Assembly: GCF_023699475.1 (NCBI RefSeq)
Contig: NZ_JALXFV010000002.1
Location: forward strand, 310,001 to 374,000
DNA from: Halomarina rubra
GTDB lineage: Archaea; Halobacteriota; Halobacteria; Halobacteriales; Haloarculaceae
Length of the DNA stretch: 64,000 bases
Direction of reading: 5' to 3'
Below, piece by piece: positions 8,547 to 21,440 of the stretch. Each line of letters begins with the position of its first letter. The stretch's first letter is position 1. The notes below the pieces were generated by a model that saw only the letters and a program-made list of their open reading frames with translations, was not told the DNA's origin and ran no database searches. A program made the translations under genes and the position numbers.

Positions 8547-10868
8547 ATGGCTATTAAGGACGTCCTACCGGGCACCGACGAGGACGCTCAGGAGGACTCG
8601 TCGGACGAGGCGTCCGTCCCCGGTGACGCCGCAGTTTCGGTTGGCGAGTACACCTGGGAGGACTACAAGCGCGAGTTCTACTTCGATGAGGAGGGCAACC
8701 CGCCGACTGACGACGAAGAGCGGGTCGTCCCGTTCGACAAGGAAGACGCCCTGGGGTTCGACCCCGAGGCGCTGGGCGGGATGCTCGCTCACGGTGAGTC
8801 GGCGGCGAACTTCATGCTGGACCACGAGGCCGAGCAGTCCGTCCAGGTCGCCGAGGAACTCGATGAGGACGAGTTCTTCTCGACCGTCGAGGGACACACC
8901 ACCGTCTCGAACCGCTACGACATGGAGAAGACGGTCCCCTTTGAGAAGAAGTCACACTTCGAGGAGGTCGACCGCTACTGGGTGAACAAACCCCACGCCT
9001 TCGTCGTCATCTTCCACTCCACGAAAGAGAACGAACAGAAGTACTACGTCGTCGAGCCGTACCTCACGGACATCGAGCGGGATCTGATGGAGTTCCTCTC
9101 GGGGAAGCTGAAGACCGCCATCAAGTACTCCGACGACGACGTCATCGTCCAGGGCAGCGACGAGTCGCGTGCCGACGTCATCGAACGCGAGACCCAGCGA
9201 CTGCTCGACCGGTACGACCTGTTCGACGGCGACATCACCGCCTTCGCGGCCGACGAACCACAGGTGGCCGACGACGGGTTCGTCGCCCAACTCAAGGAGC
9301 TGTTCGGGTTCGAGCAGGAACTGGTCGTCCACGACGGCGAACTCGACGGCATCGCGGCCCGCCCGGAGCCCGCCTTGCTCGAAGAAGATTCGCCGACGCT
9401 CACCGAGTACCAGGTCGAGAAGATACTGTACTACCTCCGTCGTGACTTCGTCGGCTTCGAGCGTATCGACCCCATCAAACACGACATCAACATCGAGGAC
9501 GTCTCGTGTGACGGCTACGAGTCACCCGTCTTCGTCTACCACTCCGACCACGAGCAGGTCATCTCGAACGTCTACCACGGCACGCAGGAACTCGACGACT
9601 TCGTCGTGAAGATGGCTCAGCGCTCGGGCAAGGGTATCTCGAAACGCCAGCCACAGGTCGACTGTACGCTTCCCGATGGCTCACGTGCCCAGCTCACGCT
9701 CGGCAAGGAGGTCTCGGACCACGGGACGAACTACACCATCCGACAGTTCAAGGACGTCCCGTTCACACCTATCGACCTCATCAACTGGAACACGTTCTCC
9801 CTGGAGGAGATGGCGTACCTCTGGCTCTGCATCGAGAACAACAAGAGCCTCATCTTCGCGGGCGGGACGGCATCTGGGAAGACCACCTCGCTCAACGCCG
9901 TGAGCTTGTTCATCCCCTCGAAGTCGAAGATCGTCTCCATCGAGGACACGCGTGAGGTCGAACTGCCCCAGCGAAACTGGATTGCTTCGGTGACGCGTCC
10001 CTCCTTTTCCGACGACGGGAAGGGCGACGTCGACGAGTTCGATCTGCTCGAAGCTGCACTGCGCCAACGCCCCGAGTACATCGTCATGGGTGAGATCCGT
10101 GGTGAGGAGGGTCGCACGCTGTTCCAGGTCATGTCGACCGGTCACACCACGCTGACGACGTTCCACGCCGACTCCGTTGGCGAGGTCATCAAGCGGTTCA
10201 CGACAGAACCGATCAACGTCTCGAAGACGATGTTCACAGCACTCGACCTGGTGAGCATCCAGACCTCCACCCGAGTGAACGGCAACAAGGTCCGCCGGAA
10301 CAAGTCGCTGACCGAAATCAACAGCTACGACCCGGAGAACGACGAGATCAACGTTCAGGACGTCTACCAGTGGCAGGCCGAGACCGACGAGTACCTCCGG
10401 ATGGGCGAGTCCAACACCATCGAGGAGATCAAGTTCGACCGCGGGTGGAACCAGGACAAGCTCGAAGAGGAGCTGTTCAAACGCAAACTCGTCCTCGCGT
10501 ACCTCATCGAGGCGCGGTTGAACACCTACACGCAGGTCGCGGCGACGCTCCAGGCGTTCATCAACGACCCCGACACCATCCTGCGGCTCATCGCCAACGG
10601 CGACCTTGAAGAGAGTCTGCTCGACCTGCAAGAGATGGAGTCGGTCAGCATCGACATCGACCCGGAGAAAGAGGAGATGGTCCCCCGGCCCGACCCGACG
10701 TTAGAGGTGCTCGGCGAGGCCGAAGAAATCCTCACGCAGGCGACTCCACTGCTCCGGGAGTACAGCGGCGAGGAGGTGACGGTCGACGAGTTCGCCGAGG
10801 CGCTGTCGGGGGTGGACGACGACGAGGAGGCGTTCGGCGGCTTCCGACCGAAAGGAGGCGATGAATGA
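8547..10868 (+). CDS. pilB: Type IV pilus assembly / type II secretion ATPase (PilB-FlaI family)
   Basis: A 773-aa secretion ATPase that would power assembly of pilin-like subunits from the cytoplasmic side. The first 270 residues are an acidic, archaea-specific region. The core has Walker A AGGTASGKTTS near residue 440, an Asp-box region IVSIEDTREVELPQ near 460, Walker B YIVMGEIRGEEG near 510 and the His box STGHTTLTTFHADS near 530. The start is taken at ATG 8547 (MAIKDVLPGTDEDAQED); an upstream extension of 16 residues is basic and unlike this family. It overlaps the membrane platform gene by 4 bp. The name pilB is a family name; haloarchaea carry several paralogues and which one this is cannot be stated. 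Confidence 0.92.
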   Translation: MAIKDVLPGTDEDAQEDSSDEASVPGDAAVSVGEYTWEDYKREFYFDEEGNPPTDDEERVVPFDKEDALGFDPEALGGMLAHGESAANFMLDHEAEQSVQVAEELDEDEFFSTVEGHTTVSNRYDMEKTVPFEKKSHFEEVDRYWVNKPHAFVVIFHSTKENEQKYYVVEPYLTDIERDLMEFLSGKLKTAIKYSDDDVIVQGSDESRADVIERETQRLLDRYDLFDGDITAFAADEPQVADDGFVAQLKELFGFEQELVVHDGELDGIAARPEPALLEEDSPTLTEYQVEKILYYLRRDFVGFERIDPIKHDINIEDVSCDGYESPVFVYHSDHEQVISNVYHGTQELDDFVVKMAQRSGKGISKRQPQVDCTLPDGSRAQLTLGKEVSDHGTNYTIRQFKDVPFTPIDLINWNTFSLEEMAYLWLCIENNKSLIFAGGTASGKTTSLNAVSLFIPSKSKIVSIEDTREVELPQRNWIASVTRPSFSDDGKGDVDEFDLLEAALRQRPEYIVMGEIRGEEGRTLFQVMSTGHTTLTTFHADSVGEVIKRFTTEPINVSKTMFTALDLVSIQTSTRVNGNKVRRNKSLTEINSYDPENDEINVQDVYQWQAETDEYLRMGESNTIEEIKFDRGWNQDKLEEELFKRKLVLAYLIEARLNTYTQVAATLQAFINDPDTILRLIANGDLEESLLDLQEMESVSIDIDPEKEEMVPRPDPTLEVLGEAEEILTQATPLLREYSGEEVTVDEFAEALSGVDDDEEAFGGFRPKGGDE

Positions 10869-12907
10869 GCACCGAGACGGCCGGTGGACAGGTTGGCTCG
10901 AACAGCCTCGGCGACGCGTTCTATCCGCTGTACAAGGCGCTGTTCGACGAGGAGGGTGACTTCACCGCCTCCATCGAGCGAAAACTCGCGCAGGCGCGGA
11001 TGGCCCAGACCGTCGAGATGTACCTCTCGCAGGCGCTCGCCGTCGGCGTCCTCGCTGGCGGGCTGCTCTGGCTGGTCGGGACGCTCGGCGTGTTCATGGT
11101 GTTTCAGCTGTTCGTCACCCAGACACCGACGCTGCTCGGCCTCCCGCTCGAAGGCCAGACGCTCGAACTCGTCAACGCGGTCAAGATACCAGCGCTCATC
11201 CTCGTCGGTGGCCTGGTGTTCGGTGCCATCGGCTTCGGGATGGGCTTCGGCTCGCTGCTCGCGGTGCCGTACTTCAAAGCCGGCGAACGGAAACGGAACA
11301 TCAACGTCCTGCTCTCCGACGCGACGTCGTTCATGTACGCGCTGTCGGTAGGTGGGTTGAACCAACTGGAGATCCTCGAGGCCATCGCGATGGCCGACGA
11401 CACCTACGGCGAGGTGTCGAAGGAGTTCCAGTCCATCATCCGCGAGACGCAGTACTTCGACACCGACTACCGCAACGCTGTCCGCAACCAGGCGCTCCAG
11501 ACGCCGAGTGACGAACTCAGCCAGTTCCTGACGGACATGCTTTCCATCATCGACTCGGGGGGGAACATGACGAACTTCCTCGAAGACCAGAAGGAAAAAC
11601 AGATGCGGACCTCCAAGCAAGAACAGGAGACCGTCCTGGAGACCCTCGAACTGTTCGGGGAGATGTTCATGACGCTGTCGCTGTTCCCGCTGCTGTTGCT
11701 GATCATCCTCGTTATCATGTCGATGATGGGCCAGTCCCAGACGGACATGCTCTACCTGACGGTCTACGGACTCATCCCGCTCATCGGCGGGGCGTTCCTC
11801 ATCCTCATCTCGACGGTCGTCCAGGACGAGGTCGGCGACGGCTACCTCCACGAGGAGGGGACCGCCGAGCGCACCTCCGACGGCCTGTTTAGCCTCGGCC
11901 TCGTCGAGCGCTACACGGGCGAGCACAGCGTCTTCGACCGTATCAAGAGCCGTGAGGGGACCTACGAGACCGGTCGGATGCTCAAGCGGCCCCACATCTT
12001 CTTCCGGGATCACCCCCTGACGGTGTTGTTCCTGACGATTCCGGCGTCGTTCGTCTTTCTCGCGTTTTCTGTACTCGGCGGGTTCGCCCCGCTATCACTC
12101 GCGGAGATGAAGGAGGCTCCCGTCCGCGGGACGTTCTTCTGGCTCTACCTCCCGCTGTACGTCAACGGCATCCCACTGGCCATCTTCCACGAGTGGAACG
12201 TCCAGCACCGACGCAGCATCACGGCGAAACTCTCGGAGAACCTCCGAAAGCTTTCGTCGGCCAACGAGACCGGGATGACGCTCTTGGAGTCTATCAAGTC
12301 GGTCTCGGACACCTCTACCGGCCGGCTCGCAGACGAACTGGACACCATCCACGCGAAGGTGAACTACGGGACGAGCCTGAAGAACGCCCTCTATGAGTTC
12401 AACAACAAGTACCACATCCCGCGGCTCGCACGGACGACGAAGCTCATCGCGAAGGCTCAGGAGGCGTCCAGTCAGATTACGGCCGTGCTGACAACGGCCG
12501 CACAGGCCTCGGAGAACCAGGACGATATCGCCCGGGACCGCAAGTCCCGAACGCGGATGCAGGTCGTCATCATCATCATGACGTTCCTGACGCTGCTCGC
12601 GGTCATGGCCATCCTCAAGGTGAAGTTCCTCGGTGTGATGGCTGACCTCGCCACACAATCCGGTGGTGGTGGCAGCGCTGGCTCCGAGGCCGTCTCCGGG
12701 TCGTCCGGTGGCCTTGGTGGTGGTGGTGGGTTCGCAGAGAATGTTGACGTCCCGCTGATGGACATGTTGTTCTTCCACGCGGTGACGTTCCAGGCTATCG
12801 TCTCGGGTGTCGTTGCGGGGTACATCCGCGACGTGAGCATCCTCGCCGGGGTGAAGTTCCTCGTCATTCTGCCGACGTTCGCCTTGGTGGTGTTCTTATT
12901 CATATGA
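10865..12907 (+). CDS. pilC: Type II/IV secretion membrane platform protein (PilC-TadC-like)
   Basis: A 680-aa polytopic membrane protein with two T2SSF-type modules, about residues 150-300 and 430-560, each followed by paired hydrophobic segments. Membrane segments are visible near 60-80, 110-130, 275-320, 395-425, 575-600, 640-660 and at the C-terminus. Cytoplasmic loops carry the GGLNQLEILEAIA- and ANETGMTLLESI-type helices characteristic of the family. A Gly/Ser-rich loop occurs near residue 605. Start ATG 10865 overlaps the ATPase stop by 4 bp. It would form the inner-membrane base on which the pilin-like proteins downstream assemble. Confidence 0.9.
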   Translation: MSTETAGGQVGSNSLGDAFYPLYKALFDEEGDFTASIERKLAQARMAQTVEMYLSQALAVGVLAGGLLWLVGTLGVFMVFQLFVTQTPTLLGLPLEGQTLELVNAVKIPALILVGGLVFGAIGFGMGFGSLLAVPYFKAGERKRNINVLLSDATSFMYALSVGGLNQLEILEAIAMADDTYGEVSKEFQSIIRETQYFDTDYRNAVRNQALQTPSDELSQFLTDMLSIIDSGGNMTNFLEDQKEKQMRTSKQEQETVLETLELFGEMFMTLSLFPLLLLIILVIMSMMGQSQTDMLYLTVYGLIPLIGGAFLILISTVVQDEVGDGYLHEEGTAERTSDGLFSLGLVERYTGEHSVFDRIKSREGTYETGRMLKRPHIFFRDHPLTVLFLTIPASFVFLAFSVLGGFAPLSLAEMKEAPVRGTFFWLYLPLYVNGIPLAIFHEWNVQHRRSITAKLSENLRKLSSANETGMTLLESIKSVSDTSTGRLADELDTIHAKVNYGTSLKNALYEFNNKYHIPRLARTTKLIAKAQEASSQITAVLTTAAQASENQDDIARDRKSRTRMQVVIIIMTFLTLLAVMAILKVKFLGVMADLATQSGGGGSAGSEAVSGSSGGLGGGGGFAENVDVPLMDMLFFHAVTFQAIVSGVVAGYIRDVSILAGVKFLVILPTFALVVFLFI

Positions 12908-13380
12908 ACCGGGACCGCGGGCAGACGACGCTCGATTTCGCTATCGGCGTGAGCGTGTTCCTCCTCGCCGTTGCGTTCGTTTTTTCGTTCATCCCTGGGA
13001 TGGTCCAACCGTTCGCGGACAGTGGGCAAGAAGATATGACCGTCTCAAATCGGTTAGCAGACCGTCTGGCGACTGATGTTCTGACGAGTGGTGAACCGTA
13101 TATCCTCGACAAATCGTGTACAATGTCATTTTTCGAGGAAGATGCTCCAGCGGACGTCCCGAACTACTGTGCGTTCGAGGGCGGTGGGGTTGAGGATGTA
13201 CTTGCCCTCGACTTACGAACGAATGTCCATGTCTCCTTGACTGGTGACCTCAACGACGACGGAACCGAGGAGTCATACACCGCTGGCGATTCGATTCCGG
13301 CCTCGGGTTCGACGACGACGGCAACCCGCCGTGTCACAGTGGATGGAACCCCTACGAAACTGGTGGTGAAGGTATGGTAG
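12904..13380 (+). CDS. Pilin-like membrane protein with class III signal (158 aa)
   Basis: The product begins MNRDRGQTTLDFAIGVSVFL, a prepilin-like leader: short basic head, RG followed by Q, an acidic residue at about +5, then a single hydrophobic helix of about 20 residues. The remaining ~120 residues are an extracytoplasmic domain with a Cys pair region (SCTMSF ... NYCAF). It overlaps the platform gene by 4 bp, placing it in the pilus operon. It corresponds to uncharacterised haloarchaeal family proteins found beside this ATPase/platform pair. Role as a minor pilin or pseudopilin is inferred from signal and context. Codon use is visibly less GC-rich than in the two genes upstream. Confidence 0.75.
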   Translation: MNRDRGQTTLDFAIGVSVFLLAVAFVFSFIPGMVQPFADSGQEDMTVSNRLADRLATDVLTSGEPYILDKSCTMSFFEEDAPADVPNYCAFEGGGVEDVLALDLRTNVHVSLTGDLNDDGTEESYTAGDSIPASGSTTTATRRVTVDGTPTKLVVKVW

Positions 13381-14033
13381 ACCGAGGACAGGCTCACACG
13401 CTCGAAGCGGTCATGGCGGGTGTCTTGCTGCTTGGAAGCCTCGTCTTCGCGTTGCAGGTGACTGCTGTGACACCGCTCTCTGCGAGTACGTCGAGCCAAC
13501 ACATCGAGAACCAGCAGGCAGCGACTGCAGAGGGGGTCCTCGCTGCGAGTCTCGACGACGGGTCACTGAAGCGTGGATTGTTGTACTGTAATCCCGGTGC
13601 CGAGGGTGTTCAAGAACCTCGGTTCTTGGAGTCCGGAAGTCGGCAGTTCTACACTGATGTCCCGGAGACCGACAAGGGACCGACCGGGTTCGGAAAGAAA
13701 CTCGAAGCGGCGTTCGGCTCGCAGTCAGTTGCGTACAACGTCGAACTCGTCTACGACGATGGGTCGGGGTTCGTCCGACGCAAGATGGTGTACCAAGGGA
13801 ATCCGAGTGACAACGCGGTCACCGTTGCTCGAACCGTCACGCTCCTCGATACGGACTCTTACAGCGAGAGCACAGACGGTGACGGGGAGTTAGAAGTCTC
13901 AGACAAAACACTCAGAGACATTGAAATAGATGCCTCCGACGCGGACCATGCGACCTGCTACGGGGAGACGGACACCACCGACAGTGGTGTCCACAAAGTG
14001 GTGAAAGTGGAGGTGACCGTATGGCGGCAGTGA
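13374..14033 (+). CDS. Pilin-like membrane protein with class III signal (219 aa)
   Basis: The N-terminus MVDRGQAHTLEAVMAGVLLL has the basic-Gly-Gln junction, an acidic Glu at about +6 and one hydrophobic helix, as in prepilin peptidase substrates. The rest is a soluble, Ser/Thr/Asp-rich extracytoplasmic domain with two Cys (near residues 71 and 202). ATG 13374 lies inside the end of the preceding gene (7-bp overlap), indicating translational coupling. No enzymatic motif is seen. I infer a minor pilin or pseudopilin of the adjacent machine; no characterised homologue is recognised. Confidence 0.72.
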   Translation: MVDRGQAHTLEAVMAGVLLLGSLVFALQVTAVTPLSASTSSQHIENQQAATAEGVLAASLDDGSLKRGLLYCNPGAEGVQEPRFLESGSRQFYTDVPETDKGPTGFGKKLEAAFGSQSVAYNVELVYDDGSGFVRRKMVYQGNPSDNAVTVARTVTLLDTDSYSESTDGDGELEVSDKTLRDIEIDASDADHATCYGETDTTDSGVHKVVKVEVTVWRQ

Positions 14034-14932
14034 GAGAGCGAGGCCAACTCATCTTAGTCGGTGGGTTATCTCTCGCAGTCGTACTTGTCGCAATCGCGTT
14101 AGTAATGAACGCCGCGATTTACACCGAGAGTCTGGCGAGTCGTGATGACGCCGGAGAACTGGGTAAACCCGCCTCGATAGAGTCGGATTTGTCGGCGGCA
14201 GTCGAATCGATGATGCTGAATGACTTCTCGGAGTCGGAGATATCCGATGGTGTAGGTGAGTTCAGTTCTTCGTCCGCGTACTTCGCTGCGCAGGACGGTG
14301 CGATAACCTCGGCCAGTGTTCAGTCGACAAATGCAGGTACTTTGGTCACCGATTCGAGTGGGTCCTTCGTGAGTGCCGACGGCGACGCCTCGTGGACGGT
14401 CGTTGACTCGAAGCCTGTTCGGTCCTTCGAGATGACGGTCAACGAGGATAGCCTCGGGAGTGCCTTCGAAATGGAGGTCACGAGCCCGGGGGGTGACCCG
14501 TGGACGATTGACTTCTCCGCGAGCGGCGATACGCTCACGATGACATTCGACGACACGGAGACGACCGTCACGTGTTCCACGACACCCGACAGTGAGGAGG
14601 ATGCAAAGATATCGTTCTCCAGTGGACGGCTGGGCGGTTCACAGTGTGTGCCAATGAAACGCCTGTTCTCTGGTGAGTCCGTGTATAAGATTCGATTCGT
14701 TGGAGGTGACGCGGCGGCGGGGACGTACTCGCTCGTCGTCGACGAGGATGTGACCACGATGGAAGACTACGACGACGATGGCGACGATACCGAGACTGAT
14801 TATGGGTCCGATTCGGGCGACCCGACGGTGGCCGAGGAGCTGTACTCGGTAGAGCTCTTGCTTGAGTACGACTCTCCTGAAATCCAGTACGAGACGACGG
14901 TTGTGGTAGCACCAGGTGAGAACGATGACTGA
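14021..14932 (+). CDS. Pilin-like membrane protein with class III signal (303 aa)
   Basis: The third of the series. MAAVRERGQLILVGGLSLAV shows the RG-Q junction directly before the hydrophobic helix, but lacks the acidic residue at +5. The long extracytoplasmic part is Ser/Asp-rich and contains a beta-rich Cys-bearing region (TTVTCSTTPD, SQCVPMKRLF), then a highly acidic run near residues 245-270. ATG 14021 overlaps the previous gene by 13 bp; an alternative GTG at 14030 would give the 4-bp overlap seen elsewhere in the operon. Function unknown; membership in the pilus-like operon is the main clue. Confidence 0.72.
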   Translation: MAAVRERGQLILVGGLSLAVVLVAIALVMNAAIYTESLASRDDAGELGKPASIESDLSAAVESMMLNDFSESEISDGVGEFSSSSAYFAAQDGAITSASVQSTNAGTLVTDSSGSFVSADGDASWTVVDSKPVRSFEMTVNEDSLGSAFEMEVTSPGGDPWTIDFSASGDTLTMTFDDTETTVTCSTTPDSEEDAKISFSSGRLGGSQCVPMKRLFSGESVYKIRFVGGDAAAGTYSLVVDEDVTTMEDYDDDGDDTETDYGSDSGDPTVAEELYSVELLLEYDSPEIQYETTVVVAPGENDD

Positions 14933-15386
14933 CGAACGTGCCGTTTCGACGACCGTCGGCTTCGTGACGACACTCGGTGTCGCGAGTATCCTCATCTCGG
15001 GGCTGCTGATTGCAGGAGGTGGGTTCGTTGACGATCAGCGTGAGCGAACAATTCGGTCCGAAATGCAGGTTATCGGCCAGCAGGTCGCCTCGGACATCGA
15101 TGCAACTGACCGACTCGTGCAAACGGGTGAGAGCGTCTCCGAACTGCGGGTAACGCATCAACTCCCTGACCGCGTCACAGGCGCACAGTACTCCATAGAA
15201 GTGGATAACTCTGGTTCACAGACGAGGTTGAAGCTATCAAGTGACGACCCCGACGTCACTGTCTGGGTGCAGTTCGACGCGCAGACGGAGGTTGTCGGTG
15301 AGCGGTTCACTGGCGGCGACCTCGTAATTCGATACGCCGACGCCGATCTTGACGGTGATTTGGAACTGGAGGTGACGGGACGATGA
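14925..15386 (+). CDS. Pilin-like membrane protein (153 aa)
   Basis: It starts MTDERAVSTTVGFVTTLGVA, resembling haloarchaeal pilin leaders of the RAVS-type: basic residue, Ala, then VS and a hydrophobic helix. About 120 residues of beta-type extracytoplasmic sequence follow, including the VEVDNSG-like segment near residue 90. The ATG at 14925 is preferred over the in-frame GTG at 14916 because it gives a short leader and overlaps the previous stop by 8 bp. It is the smallest of the set. A minor pilin role is inferred. Confidence 0.72.
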   Translation: MTDERAVSTTVGFVTTLGVASILISGLLIAGGGFVDDQRERTIRSEMQVIGQQVASDIDATDRLVQTGESVSELRVTHQLPDRVTGAQYSIEVDNSGSQTRLKLSSDDPDVTVWVQFDAQTEVVGERFTGGDLVIRYADADLDGDLELEVTGR

Positions 15387-16189
15387 CCCGCAGCCGTGGG
15401 GTCAGCGAAGTCGTCGGGTTCATCCTCGTGTTCTCACTCGTCACTACGACGGTTGGGGTTGTGTACGTCGCCGGATTCGACGGACTCACCAACGCACGTG
15501 ACGCCGAGCGAATCAATAACGTCGAACGGGCGTTCGACGTGATGGCCCACAACATCGAGGACATCGACCGAGACGGTGCCCCTGGTCGATCCACGGAGAT
15601 TAAGCTCGCCGATGGGCAGATATCGTTCAGTGAAGAGACGACCGTCAAGTGGTGTTGGGATAACGACCCAGATACAGACTACGACAATCTCTGTGACCCA
15701 GCAGACACGACGACGATGCACTCTGAGACGCTTCAACCGGTCATATTCGAAGCAGAAGGCACACAACTCGTCTACGAGAACGGCGCCGTTATTAGAGAGC
15801 AGCGTGGTGGTGCGATACTCGTTCGCGAGCCACGGATGTTGTTCCGTGATTCGACCGAGAGATCGGTTATCATCCCCACTATCGACCTCAATGCGCAGGG
15901 CAAGTCGAACGTCGCAGGGGATACGACGATGCTCGTCCGGACCCAACTACAGGCAGGACAGGGCGCTCGCAAGTGGCTCGACCCATCACCAGTGACTAGC
16001 GAGCGGAAGATTCGCTACACGATTCAGACGACCCCGAATCGAGCAGGCGCATGGGAACGATATCTCGAAAATAGAATATCATGGGAATCCAACGCCTGTG
16101 AGATCGTTGGCTCAGGTAACGTCAAGTGTGATTTTACTGCGGATCAGATGCTGTTTCGTGTCGTGCGCATCGATGTAACGTTCGCCTGA
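15383..16189 (+). CDS. Pilin-like membrane protein (268 aa)
   Basis: Last gene of the operon, overlapping the previous stop by 4 bp. MTRSRGVSEVVGFILVFSLV carries an SRG-V junction, Glu three residues on, and a hydrophobic helix, as in archaeal pilins. The ~240-residue outer domain includes a motif-like stretch, IDLNAQGKSNVAGDT, and Cys pairs near residues 92, 102 and 245-255. It resembles in layout, on a smaller scale, the large protein encoded on the opposite strand at 16951-18462 (same SRG leader, same position of hydrophobic helix). Function unknown beyond the pilus-like context. Confidence 0.72.
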   Translation: MTRSRGVSEVVGFILVFSLVTTTVGVVYVAGFDGLTNARDAERINNVERAFDVMAHNIEDIDRDGAPGRSTEIKLADGQISFSEETTVKWCWDNDPDTDYDNLCDPADTTTMHSETLQPVIFEAEGTQLVYENGAVIREQRGGAILVREPRMLFRDSTERSVIIPTIDLNAQGKSNVAGDTTMLVRTQLQAGQGARKWLDPSPVTSERKIRYTIQTTPNRAGAWERYLENRISWESNACEIVGSGNVKCDFTADQMLFRVVRIDVTFA

Positions 16190-16950
16190 ATCCATTCATG
16201 GCAACACACTTTTGTTTCCGTCTAAACTGCTTAGTCTCGAACCGAGCGACTGCCACAGAAGTCCGTCGTCTGCCAGACGGACTGAGTGCAGATTACCGGC
16301 GGCTCTCGACGAAACGCGTTCAGTAGCGCCCCGTCGTCGTCTCGATGGCTGGTTCCGTCGGTTCCGTCGGCGCACGTCGTGGTCAATGAGTCGACGGAGA
16401 GTGAACCGCTTCACAATCAAGGTGTCATTGGGGGGGGGGTTCGTTCTACGTCGATATCGTCGAGTGATCCTCGTAGATTCGGGTCACACAACATTGCGTG
16501 ACTCGCAGCCATCGCTTCGACCGTGTCTTCTATCGGAAATGTCCACGGAATAGAACGTCGATACATTTCCGGAGAACTCCAGCAATCGTTTGGCCTTCGA
16601 GTTTCTATTGAATGGATTTTCGTAGTAGTACGCATCCCTACAATCGCTCGTGTCCCATGCTGTCGGTAGCGGGATGTCACGCGAGGACGTGAAAAAGGTA
16701 CTCGAAGCCCTCATGCCCAGATATCCAAGTCATTCCTCGTGGTCAGTGGCTCTCCTCAATTCGAACCAGAGGAGTGGACACGCCGTACGGTTCGACTCTC
16801 GTAGACGCTGATACAGGAGTGTGGTTAACTCGCTTTGGTCCTTTGACCAACGTCGTTGTCCGTCACTCGTACTCTATTCGTGGAACAAACGAATCGTCCG
16901 GACGGACGGCAGCGAGAATCTTAGACGAGGGGTACCACGACCACTAGCGG
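16190..16950. other. Gene-free segment between convergent genes, with a G10 tract and decayed coding traces
   Basis: 761 bp between the convergent stops of the pilus operon and the large pilin-like gene. A run of ten G occupies 16430-16439. A minus-strand open stretch (16484-16714) and an overlapping one in another frame (16417-16680) join into one plausible protein-like reading only with a frameshift near 16540. The low GC and absence of a start signal suggest a dead gene fragment. No RNA gene is recognised. Confidence 0.5.
16417..16714 (-). pseudogene. Possible frameshifted gene remnant
   Basis: Reading the minus strand, one frame gives a segment ending FSGNVSTFYSVD, and a second frame continues from the same point with FPIEDTVEAMAASHAMLC and then a short acidic tail. 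Each half looks more like protein than the alternative frames do, so a single indel near 16540 is suspected. No family is recognised, and the C-tract on this strand (complement of 16430-16439) ends it. This is a weak call. Confidence 0.25.
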
Positions 16951-18462
16951 TTACTCGAACCTGACCTTAACTTCGTTCTCGGAGACGTGCAGGTACGTGA
17001 TAACGTCACTGCCAGTGTATATAATGTTGTTACCGTTGGACGATGGTTCGTTGACGGAGTTTCCGTGGTTCCCGTCTGTCGAACGGAGGTCGAAGGTTGG
17101 TGCGAAGTGGTTGAAGTAGTGTCGTATAATCAGATCAGCGGACGCATCGCTTCCGACAGTGTAGGTGACATCCGCGTTATCACCCTCAAAATGGTCGAAC
17201 ACGACGGGGTCTTGGAGCGATATGCTGTTTGGATTCGAGGCAACCAAGTTGCTCGCTGTGACTGATTCGTAGTTCATCGACGGCGTCGAATCGCCGATGA
17301 GGTCGAGCTCAATTTTGGGTGTCGACCCACTGCAGTCAACCGTGTATGCGTTCTCCGCGTGCCAACCCTGGTACGTTTCACCACCATCGTGGTAGTAGAT
17401 AGTCAGATCGGCGGCATCTCCGCATCCACCGCTCCCTTGCATCTTGAGGTTGATTTCCATCTCTTGACCTCCCGAGTGGACGTACATCGACCAGTCGAGG
17501 CTTGAGAAATGGTCCTGTGTCCTGTCGATTGGTCGGAGAGTCACAGCGAGGTCTTTCAGACCGTCGCCGTCTTGCATCGACGGTTCCAGACCCCGTACTT
17601 GGAACGGATTGTCTTCACTCGGGAGGTTGAACTCACCTTGGTGACCTAAAGTAATCAGTTCCGCTGTGACGGTTTCTGCCCCGTGATCTACGTCAATGAC
17701 GCTTCCTTCTGTCCTTGAGTTGAAATACTCCTCCCATCCTTGGTAGTATTCGCTCTGAATTGTGACTATTATCTGCCCGTTACTCGCGGGGTTGGTGTAC
17801 TGCTTTGTCGAGTTATCGACGTAATCGGTGTTGGAATTTGGGTAGATGGTCTCGGTCGATGTCGCTCGCTCAACAACTGCCGTCGGTGACCCTGAAGCCG
17901 AGTCCTCCCCGGTGACAGTTACGACCGGGAGGGTGAGTGTCGACCCTTCGTAATGAAACTCGGGAGGCGAGACCATTTGCGTGTTTCCGTCCTGATGACG
18001 CCAGACGCCACCGCCCTGGTACGCTATCTCTGTGTCTCCGTTTTGGTAGACGACAGCTCCGAGAGGCCCTGAGTATATGTCCTCATCATCATCGTAGTTT
18101 CCATCGTCGGTCTTGTCGTCGTCACCGTCAGAATCGTCGCCATCGTGGTTCACGTGTGTGACGGTAATCGTGCCTTCACCCTCAACCACCTGATAGTTTC
18201 CTGATGAATGCCCGAGCGAGAGTTCTTGTAAGCTTTCTGCGCCAAGTGCAACTTGCGCAGCCCGCGAGTCGAACTGAGCCATCGACTGTTCGGCACGCTC
18301 AAGTGTTGATTGCCGCTCTGTGTCCTCGAGTGCGACCGAACCGAGAGCGACCACGCTCGTCATTCCAATCACGACCATTCCGAGGATGAGCACGTACCCA
18401 ACCGTCGACGACATCCCTCGAGAACGACTGGTCCATTTTTCAGAGATATCTCGACGACTCAT
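16951..18462 (-). CDS. Large pilin-like / adhesin-like surface protein (503 aa)
   Basis: The product starts MSRRDISEKWTSRSRGMSST. It has a basic head, an SRG junction, then the hydrophobic helix VGYVLILGMVVIGMTSVVAL: a class III (prepilin-like) leader. A ~460-residue extracytoplasmic domain follows, Ser/Thr/Asn/Gly-rich, with an Asp-only-like acidic loop near residues 120-145 and a Cys pair in the middle (GSGGCGDAADL, YTVDCSGS). The layout is like the last gene of the pilus operon, doubled in size. ATG 18462 is chosen because the frame upstream is in AT-rich non-coding DNA with a TATA-like box at the proper distance. It is transcribed towards the pilus operon. A tip adhesin or major surface subunit is a reasonable guess only. 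Confidence 0.72.
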   Translation of the reverse strand: MSRRDISEKWTSRSRGMSSTVGYVLILGMVVIGMTSVVALGSVALEDTERQSTLERAEQSMAQFDSRAAQVALGAESLQELSLGHSSGNYQVVEGEGTITVTHVNHDGDDSDGDDDKTDDGNYDDDEDIYSGPLGAVVYQNGDTEIAYQGGGVWRHQDGNTQMVSPPEFHYEGSTLTLPVVTVTGEDSASGSPTAVVERATSTETIYPNSNTDYVDNSTKQYTNPASNGQIIVTIQSEYYQGWEEYFNSRTEGSVIDVDHGAETVTAELITLGHQGEFNLPSEDNPFQVRGLEPSMQDGDGLKDLAVTLRPIDRTQDHFSSLDWSMYVHSGGQEMEINLKMQGSGGCGDAADLTIYYHDGGETYQGWHAENAYTVDCSGSTPKIELDLIGDSTPSMNYESVTASNLVASNPNSISLQDPVVFDHFEGDNADVTYTVGSDASADLIIRHYFNHFAPTFDLRSTDGNHGNSVNEPSSNGNNIIYTGSDVITYLHVSENEVKVRFE

Positions 18463-18500: not shown

Positions 18501-18638
18501 GGCTACCTTGCTCAGAAAGGAGATGGGGGATCAAACACACATGCGGAATGTCAGAGAAATTTGAATAAGGGTGTCTAGAGTGTCATAGTCTGACTCAGGA
18601 AGGCGTTAAGTATGTTTGACTTGCTACACCGTAGCACA

Positions 18639-19929: not shown

Positions 19930-21114
19930 TCAGGTGCTCCGTCTATCGAGGATGTTTGAGGATGACCGAGCACCTGCCACTCCCATCTCGTTGTGTGCTG
20001 TTTGATTCCAGTGAGCGTCGTCGTACATCATATCTCTCAGCGGGTAGTAGCGTGGATTGTCGACGTAGTATGCATTTTCGTCGAGGGCACAGGCAACTGC
20101 CTGTGCGTTCGAGATTCCACACCGTTCTGCAGTCGAGATCTGTGAGCCATAGACGACAAACGGGAGGTTCGGATATCGAAGTGACTCTCGATATCGGCCG
20201 AATAGACCCTGCAGTGACGAGAGATACCTGTTCGGTTCGACTCCGCGTTTCGCATCGTTGCCACCTTGACACCAATGGACCATTCGGAGATTCGGGGAGT
20301 ACCCCGCTTTTTTGAGCTCACCCAGTGCCTCCGTCGTCCACCGAATCGAGCGCTCAAACAGCGTCCCACTTGGACTCCAATTGCCGTTTCCGGTGTCTCC
20401 CGTCTCTGTAAGACCTGTTGCGCCTTTCGCGGTCTGGATAATGCAGATCTCACGTCTCGTCGCTGCATGGAGCGTGGTTACGAACGACGGCCATGCTGCT
20501 TCCATGACCTTCTTGCTGGTTCCCGATGACATTTCGACCAACGACGATGAGTCTGGTGGGTAGTAATACTGTCCAACCCCCGGCTCAACAGATGGCCACG
20601 TTGCATTACGATCGTCTGGATCACCGAGCGCGTTGCTTTGCCCGGCGATAACGAACACGTCGATATCACCATCGAGAGAGTCAGTTATTTCTCTTTTTCG
20701 GAGTTCCCGGTCTTCAGGACATGTGCCATCTGTGGCCCCATCTCGATTAGTGAGTTCAGAACCACCAACCGCGTCATCTGGTGGTTTCTCCATCCCAGGC
20801 GATCCATACTGTGAGGTTCCGGCCATCGACTGGTCGGACGAATCGAAATCAAGTGAGTGCCACTCGCCCGCGGCCTCTTCCCACCGGAAGATGCTGTTAC
20901 TGTCCGTGGCGTAGTACATTGCGCCGTCGAACGGCCCCGATTGTGGGCGATTGGCGTCACTGCCGGGCTCAAGGAGCATGGTTCGAAGCTTGCGCCGGCT
21001 CGCTTCTTCGAGGCGCTCTGTGTCAATGCACTGGTCGCACTCAGCGTCAGATCCTTCATTCAACAGGAGAAAGCCGCCCCATCGCGCCCGTGGTGAATCC
21101 GAGTTATCAGCCAT
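19930..21114 (-). CDS. SGNH / sialate O-acetylesterase-like hydrolase with N-terminal tail-fibre-like region
   Basis: A 394-aa protein. Residues ~150-390 look like a carbohydrate esterase of the SASA (sialate O-acetylesterase-like) SGNH group. Block I is VFVIAGQSNALGDPD with the nucleophile Ser, the oxyanion/Asn block is MVHWCQGGNDAKRG, and the catalytic Asp-His pair is in DDAHWNQTAHNEMG. The first ~150 residues are acidic and include MYYATDSNSIFRWEEAAGEW, resembling the short domain that caps many phage tail-fibre and structural proteins. There is no signal peptide. GC content is lower than in housekeeping neighbours. The gene lies 255 bp from tRNA-Ala in gene-poor DNA, so virus or mobile-element origin is plausible. 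Substrate is unknown; deacetylation of a surface glycan is an inference. Confidence 0.7.
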   Translation of the reverse strand: MADNSDSPRARWGGFLLLNEGSDAECDQCIDTERLEEASRRKLRTMLLEPGSDANRPQSGPFDGAMYYATDSNSIFRWEEAAGEWHSLDFDSSDQSMAGTSQYGSPGMEKPPDDAVGGSELTNRDGATDGTCPEDRELRKREITDSLDGDIDVFVIAGQSNALGDPDDRNATWPSVEPGVGQYYYPPDSSSLVEMSSGTSKKVMEAAWPSFVTTLHAATRREICIIQTAKGATGLTETGDTGNGNWSPSGTLFERSIRWTTEALGELKKAGYSPNLRMVHWCQGGNDAKRGVEPNRYLSSLQGLFGRYRESLRYPNLPFVVYGSQISTAERCGISNAQAVACALDENAYYVDNPRYYPLRDMMYDDAHWNQTAHNEMGVAGARSSSNILDRRST

Positions 21115-21368: not shown

Positions 21369-21440
21369 TGGACTTGCCGGGATTTGAACCCGGGGCCTCT
21401 CCCATGCCAAGGGAGTGATCTGCCACTGATCTACAAGCCC
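21369..21440 (-). tRNA. tRNA-Ala, anticodon GGC
   Basis: 72 nt, no intron, 3' CCA not encoded. The acceptor stem GGGCTTG pairs with CAAGTCC and contains the G3:U70 pair, the identity mark of alanine tRNA. D arm GATC/GATC; anticodon stem CTCCC/GGGAG with loop TTGGCAT giving anticodon GGC; T arm CCGGG/CCCGG with loop TTCAAAT; discriminator A73. It reads alanine GCC (and GCU) codons. The 3' end faces the low-GC segment 16190-21368, consistent with use as an integration site. Confidence 0.95.

Follow-up and report, generated by a model that had tools for sequence, protein, structure and literature searches.

A motor, a platform, and six prepilin-like genes

Within the window, the 64,000-nucleotide stretch of Halomarina rubra DNA analyzed here, seven genes lie in succession on the forward strand between positions 8547 and 16189. 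Open reading frames and Pfam matches place the genes for an assembly ATPase and a platform protein, followed by five prepilin-like genes that overlap, exactly where the original prediction had put them. The first gene (8547..10868) encodes a 773-aa ATPase of the PilB/GspE family, probably of the PilB4 type, with N- and C-terminal extensions (Pfam T2SSE, 6.4e-30). The second (10865..12907) encodes a 680-aa membrane platform protein of the PilC/GspF/TadC family, which matches Pfam T2SSF over two stretches or domains (9.3e-27). The prepilin-like genes that follow encode proteins of the families DUF7287 (12904..13380, 158 aa, Pfam 1.4e-45), DUF7288 (13374..14033, 219 aa, 5.3e-54), DUF7261 (14021..14932, 303 aa, 1.2e-6; ortholog profile), DUF7266 (14925..15386, with an alternative GTG start at 14916; 153 aa, 2.2e-29), and DUF7289 (15383..16189, 268 aa, 6.4e-56). 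Along the seven genes, neighbors overlap by 4, 4, 7, 13, 8, and 4 bp, the 8 bp becoming 17 bp if DUF7266 begins at its GTG. These overlaps suggest that the seven genes form one operon.

A count of five subunits proved too low. A sixth prepilin-like gene, convergent with the others, lies at 16951..18462 on the reverse strand and encodes a protein of 503 aa from the ATG at 18462, within an ORF that extends to a GTG at 18540. It combines DUF7308 (Pfam 5.8e-33) with DUF7289 (2.2e-27), and profile–profile comparison finds its outer domain homologous to that of DUF7289 with 99.8% probability. An antisense gene of the DUF7289 family adjoins 89 of 117 haloarchaeal copies of the pilin-gene set (here called the cassette), and in low-GC, non-haloarchaeal families a gene of this family adjoins 7 of 9 cassettes on the same strand. 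The spacer that separates the two converging pilin genes contains ten consecutive G residues (16430-16439), which may be a slippage site or have no significance. Farther along the reverse strand, a gene resembling sialic acid-specific acetylesterases (Pfam SASA, 19930-21114) lies near a tRNA-Ala gene (21369-21440). Both are beside a stretch of lower GC content (~0.53 at 16–20 kb), possibly an island remnant.

The window PilB matches PilB3_N at the cutoff and PilB3_C below it in a Pfam scan. Its closest solved relatives are 2OAP, deposited as "Type II secretion system protein" (4e-110), FlaI (4ihq/4ii7), and CpaF. In an ATPase tree, it groups with the long, extended ATPases of Haloferax cassette loci. 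Pfam and the solved relatives together identify a PilB/VirB11-type ATPase adjoining a PilC/TadC protein, a pairing expected of the PilB4-type archaeal pilus. The window genome encodes a PibD-family prepilin peptidase (PF06847 over the cutoff at G000:C10:587742) and a second PilB, 66% identical to that of the window, with a PilC (L046, G000:C9:157000-173000). This second locus also has a DUF7289-like gene whose product includes a domain of the Ig-like/filamin type, and C9:167507 encodes a PilA-type pilin. At a further locus (L047), a more distant PilB is accompanied by DUF7289- and DUF7266-like genes.

Conservation of the cassette and its linkage to the motor

DUF7288 is present in 105 of 116 genomes of the window's own family and in 194 of the 295 genomes of the phylum sample; among 14 control genomes, it occurs in Haloferax volcanii only. 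The order DUF7287-DUF7288-DUF7261-DUF7266-DUF7289 is exact in 95 of ~125 cassettes, a total in which a few loci represent the same species twice. The block is conserved across haloarchaea, where the original prediction had suggested looking for it, and beyond them, in other families of the phylum. Restriction of the quintet to haloarchaea was considered and rejected, given the cassettes of low-GC, non-haloarchaeal families. Named carriers include Halomarina oriensis, which is closest to the window (71% over DUF7288), as well as Haloarcula, Halorientalis, Haloferax, Halorubrum, and Natronomonas.

The position of the motor gene is far less constant. A PilB of the window type lies within 8 kb upstream of 77 of 119 scorable cassettes and is absent there in the other 42. 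Linkage changes state at least 12 times (15 with seven short loci counted against it) on a tree built from the concatenated sequences of four cassette proteins. Upstream of one unlinked cassette is a gene for a 2267-residue protein of the DUF7289 family (L033:24-6824, forward strand). At the level of whole genomes, the association is much tighter. Among 116 genomes, 101 carry both cassette and ATPase, 9 carry neither, and 6 are discordant, giving agreement in 110 of 116; the corresponding Fisher p of 5e-9 ignores relatedness, and seven of the nine double absences come from one genus. Neither DUF7288 nor the PilB4-type ATPase occurs in any of the seven sampled genomes of that genus (g5: G004, G024, G038, G051, G063, G075, and G084), which makes the genus a natural comparison group for phenotype. 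Failure of the subunits to co-occur with the ATPase/platform pair, named at the outset as evidence against a common machine, is therefore seen only locally, where the genes are often unlinked; the partners nearly always share a genome.

Because the ATPase gene is often unlinked, what is conserved as a unit is the pilin set and not the motor operon. Of the 101 genomes that carry both, 53 have more cassettes than PilB4-type ATPases, often two per ATPase, and one motor probably serves cassettes in trans in many of them. Other motors serving the cassettes could also underlie the reduced linkage. A bolder and rather unlikely extension is that the six-pilin cassette is a portable, exchangeable filament kit spanning non-haloarchaeal families and haloarchaea, that one genome maintains at least two different kits served by the same motor and platform, and that each kit builds a pseudopilus-like tip complex.

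The same counts bear on whether the adjoining ATPase is a dedicated motor at all. The 42 cassettes with no PilB within 8 kb upstream and the surplus of cassettes over ATPases would also be expected if the cassette encoded accessory or minor pilins that any PilB could assemble in trans into a general PilA pilus. PilA-type pilins are encoded elsewhere in the genome, and PilB3-C3 can substitute for PilB1-C1 in H. volcanii (PMC6491452). However, the strong genome-level co-occurrence ties the cassette to the PilB4-type subfamily in particular, and all nine haloarchaeal genomes examined that have an unlinked cassette keep one such PilB elsewhere (69–77% identity). Dependence on PilA was likewise judged unlikely by Makarova et al. 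in 2016 (PMC4858521). On balance, we regard an accessory role in a PilA pilus as improbable.

Leaders and predicted folds of the subunits

Leader sequences were aligned for 41–52 orthologs per family, taken both from haloarchaea and from additional families within the phylum. In the window, the predicted cuts (slashes) are DRG/QTTLDF in DUF7287, DRG/QAHTLE in DUF7288, ERG/QLILVG in DUF7261, ERA/VSTTVG in DUF7266, SRG/VSEVVG in DUF7289, and SRG/MSSTVG in the sixth subunit. Among orthologs with the −1 column filled, this position is Gly or Ala in 43/43 (DUF7287), 45/45 (DUF7288), 31/31 (DUF7261), 35/36 (DUF7266), and 42/43 (DUF7289). Position −2 is mostly Arg, and +1 is Gln (DUF7287, DUF7288, DUF7261) or mostly Val (DUF7266, DUF7289). 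The prepilin-type leader with its RG/RA junction, first noticed in the window alone, is not a chance resemblance; all but two sequences across five families have Gly or Ala at −1. The hallmarks of a class III signal peptide, Gly or Ala at −1 and a hydrophobic helix, are found in the orthologs and in the N-terminal helices of two structure models. One relative of DUF7289 (G006:C1:34898-35167) also scores above the cutoff for Pilin_N, which is PilA-type.

The five subunits had been described as dissimilar outside the leader, and profile–profile comparison bears this out: with the first 36–40 residues removed, every pair scores a probability of 18% or lower. With the leader kept, DUF7287 and DUF7288 (95.6%) and DUF7266 and DUF7289 (96.7%) are clearly related.

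Two subunits, DUF7266 and DUF7288, were modeled using AlphaFold2 with the ortholog alignments. The DUF7266 model (pLDDT 93.0) has one 67-residue helix (4–70) and seven strands, and the DUF7288 model (pLDDT 84.7) has helices at 4–31 and 35–62, followed by a β-rich head. The expected pilin β-sheets are therefore predicted in both modeled subunits, as confident helix-plus-β "lollipops" like those of type IV pilins. Foldseek returned no significant match to a solved structure for either model. In a second look, Foldseek's top 1000 chains were aligned and scored by Z. For DUF7266, the first three are type II secretion system (T2SS) pseudopilus chains (9a1f_R, Z 5.0; 5bw0_F, Z 4.4; 5vtm_V, Z 4.3), followed by unrelated chains at Z 3.0. 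This weak, model-based resemblance to T2SS minor pseudopilins is suggestive, not proof. For DUF7288, mostly ribosomal protein chains were listed (Z up to 5.0), in our view a common arrangement; that the list contained no pilin excludes nothing. Profile searches against solved structures found no credible relative for DUF7289 (E 0.23 or worse) or for DUF7288, for which the one entry was OR280 (E 0.0024).

These matches, together with several distinct pilin-like subunits of different sizes and a dedicated ATPase, are the features expected of a pseudopilus-like machine, in which a short filament, instead of a long adhesive pilus, would push or present proteins through the S-layer in analogy to T2SS. 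The original prediction leaned toward this comparison, and the DUF7266 matches lend it a little support. However, their Z values of 4.3–5.0 are within the range that common arrangements give, and the window PilB is nearer to 2OAP, FlaI, and CpaF than to bacterial GspE. No subunit belongs to a T2SS pseudopilin Pfam family (GspG/H/I/J/K are not among their matches at E 0.1), and the genome has no match to the secretin family PF00263, a search that was positive in six bacterial control genomes. Minor pilin sets also occur in true pili, both bacterial and archaeal. A pseudopilus-like machine is improbable, and a type II secretion system proper is not indicated. Because both the secretin and the T2SS pseudopilin families are missing, the comparison stays an analogy.

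Proposed function and relation to known systems

In characterized type IV pili, leaders are cut by a peptidase and the mature subunits are polymerized by PilB and PilC. The co-occurrence of ATPase and pilin set and the prepilin peptidase in the genome support the central proposal, a machine like a type IV pilus that has a motor of its own and several different subunits resembling PibD substrates. The most likely product is a surface pilus with a multi-subunit priming or tip complex. By analogy, PibD would cut every prepilin at the junction of Gly/Ala with Gln/Val. The PilB ATPase would then act on the PilC platform to lift the mature subunits out of the membrane, and these would stack via their hydrophobic helices. 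One short subunit would make up most of the filament. DUF7266 is the best candidate because it is one of the shortest subunits, combines an uninterrupted helix with a compact head, and has a leader region related to that of DUF7289; its role as the major pilin is nevertheless a guess, with somewhat less than even odds. The remaining subunits would form a low-abundance priming and tip complex, in which the large DUF7289/DUF7308 proteins may carry an exposed binding surface. Cleavage, co-assembly, the identity of the major subunit, the tip position, and the adhesive function are all what we infer for this surface pilus.

Haloarchaea are equipped with several motors for pili and with dozens of predicted pilins, few of which have known functions. 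The locus described here has a fixed membership and gene order, tracks one ATPase subfamily even when unlinked from it, and yields two confident models, which makes its function testable in H. volcanii. In this species, a condition for PilB4 production has already been reported: PilB4 and PilB1 were detected exclusively in cells cultured in the medium GMM (PMC7305310). The pilB4/C4 genes are expressed in H. volcanii, where a distinct pilus-like structure has been proposed as their product (PMC4371748, an earlier review that also counts two FlaFind-positive pilins with pilB4), and their expression falls in H. gibbonsii during HFTV1 infection (PMC12542753). Our literature search found no paper naming DUF7287, DUF7288, DUF7261, DUF7266, or DUF7289 and no functional test of the PilB4 system, for which the papers found report no filament, cleavage, or phenotype.

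The original prediction cited no characterized function for these subunit families. The system itself is not unknown, because Makarova et al. described a PilB4-type euryarchaeal type IV pilus (clade 2) at the arCOG level in 2016, typified by the H. volcanii PilB4 locus (PMC4858521). We estimate a probability of about 80% that the locus is this PilB4-type pilus, a label assigned by description (its own pilin set, an extended ATPase, and Haloferax cassette loci from which the pilB1 primer sites are absent) and not by direct comparison with HVO_1160. The locus is a genuine archaeal type IV pilus system, well conserved and of a kind already known. New here are a sixth subunit, conservation that extends beyond haloarchaea, and a cassette that is often separated from its motor; we did not find the fixed gene order, the frequent unlinking of the motor, or the convergence of the sixth gene spelled out in the 2016 text.

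Three sets of known systems resemble the locus to different degrees. Bacterial T2SS likewise pair several distinct class III signal peptide subunits (GspG–K) with a GspE/GspF-type pair, and DUF7266 adds a weak resemblance in fold; the window genome differs in lacking a secretin, and its subunits fall outside the T2SS pseudopilin families. Haloarchaea, unlike the bacterial hosts of T2SS, have no outer membrane. The H. volcanii PilB1-C1 operon, which belongs to subclade 4C (PMC6491452), and H. salinarum pil-2, with seven co-transcribed ORFs that include three FlaFind-positive genes (PMC4292770), share with the window an ATPase and a platform followed by several pilin-like genes; identity of the window locus with pil-2 was considered and not adopted, because an H. 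salinarum locus is mentioned under subclade 4C (PMC4858521). PilB1, however, is an ATPase of another clade than the window PilB. The PilB4-type pilus has an ATPase with haloarchaea-specific extra domains and its own pilin set, and was judged unlikely to depend on PilA; its minor pilin arCOG02911 varies in length (~250–550 aa) and is prone to duplication (PMC4858521). None of the features compared here sets the window locus apart from this pilus. DUF7289 and the DUF7289+DUF7308 protein are like arCOG02911 in size and behavior, a match made by description only. The window shares with this system an extended haloarchaeal PilB, an adjoining TadC/PilC protein, and a dedicated set of several distinct pilins.
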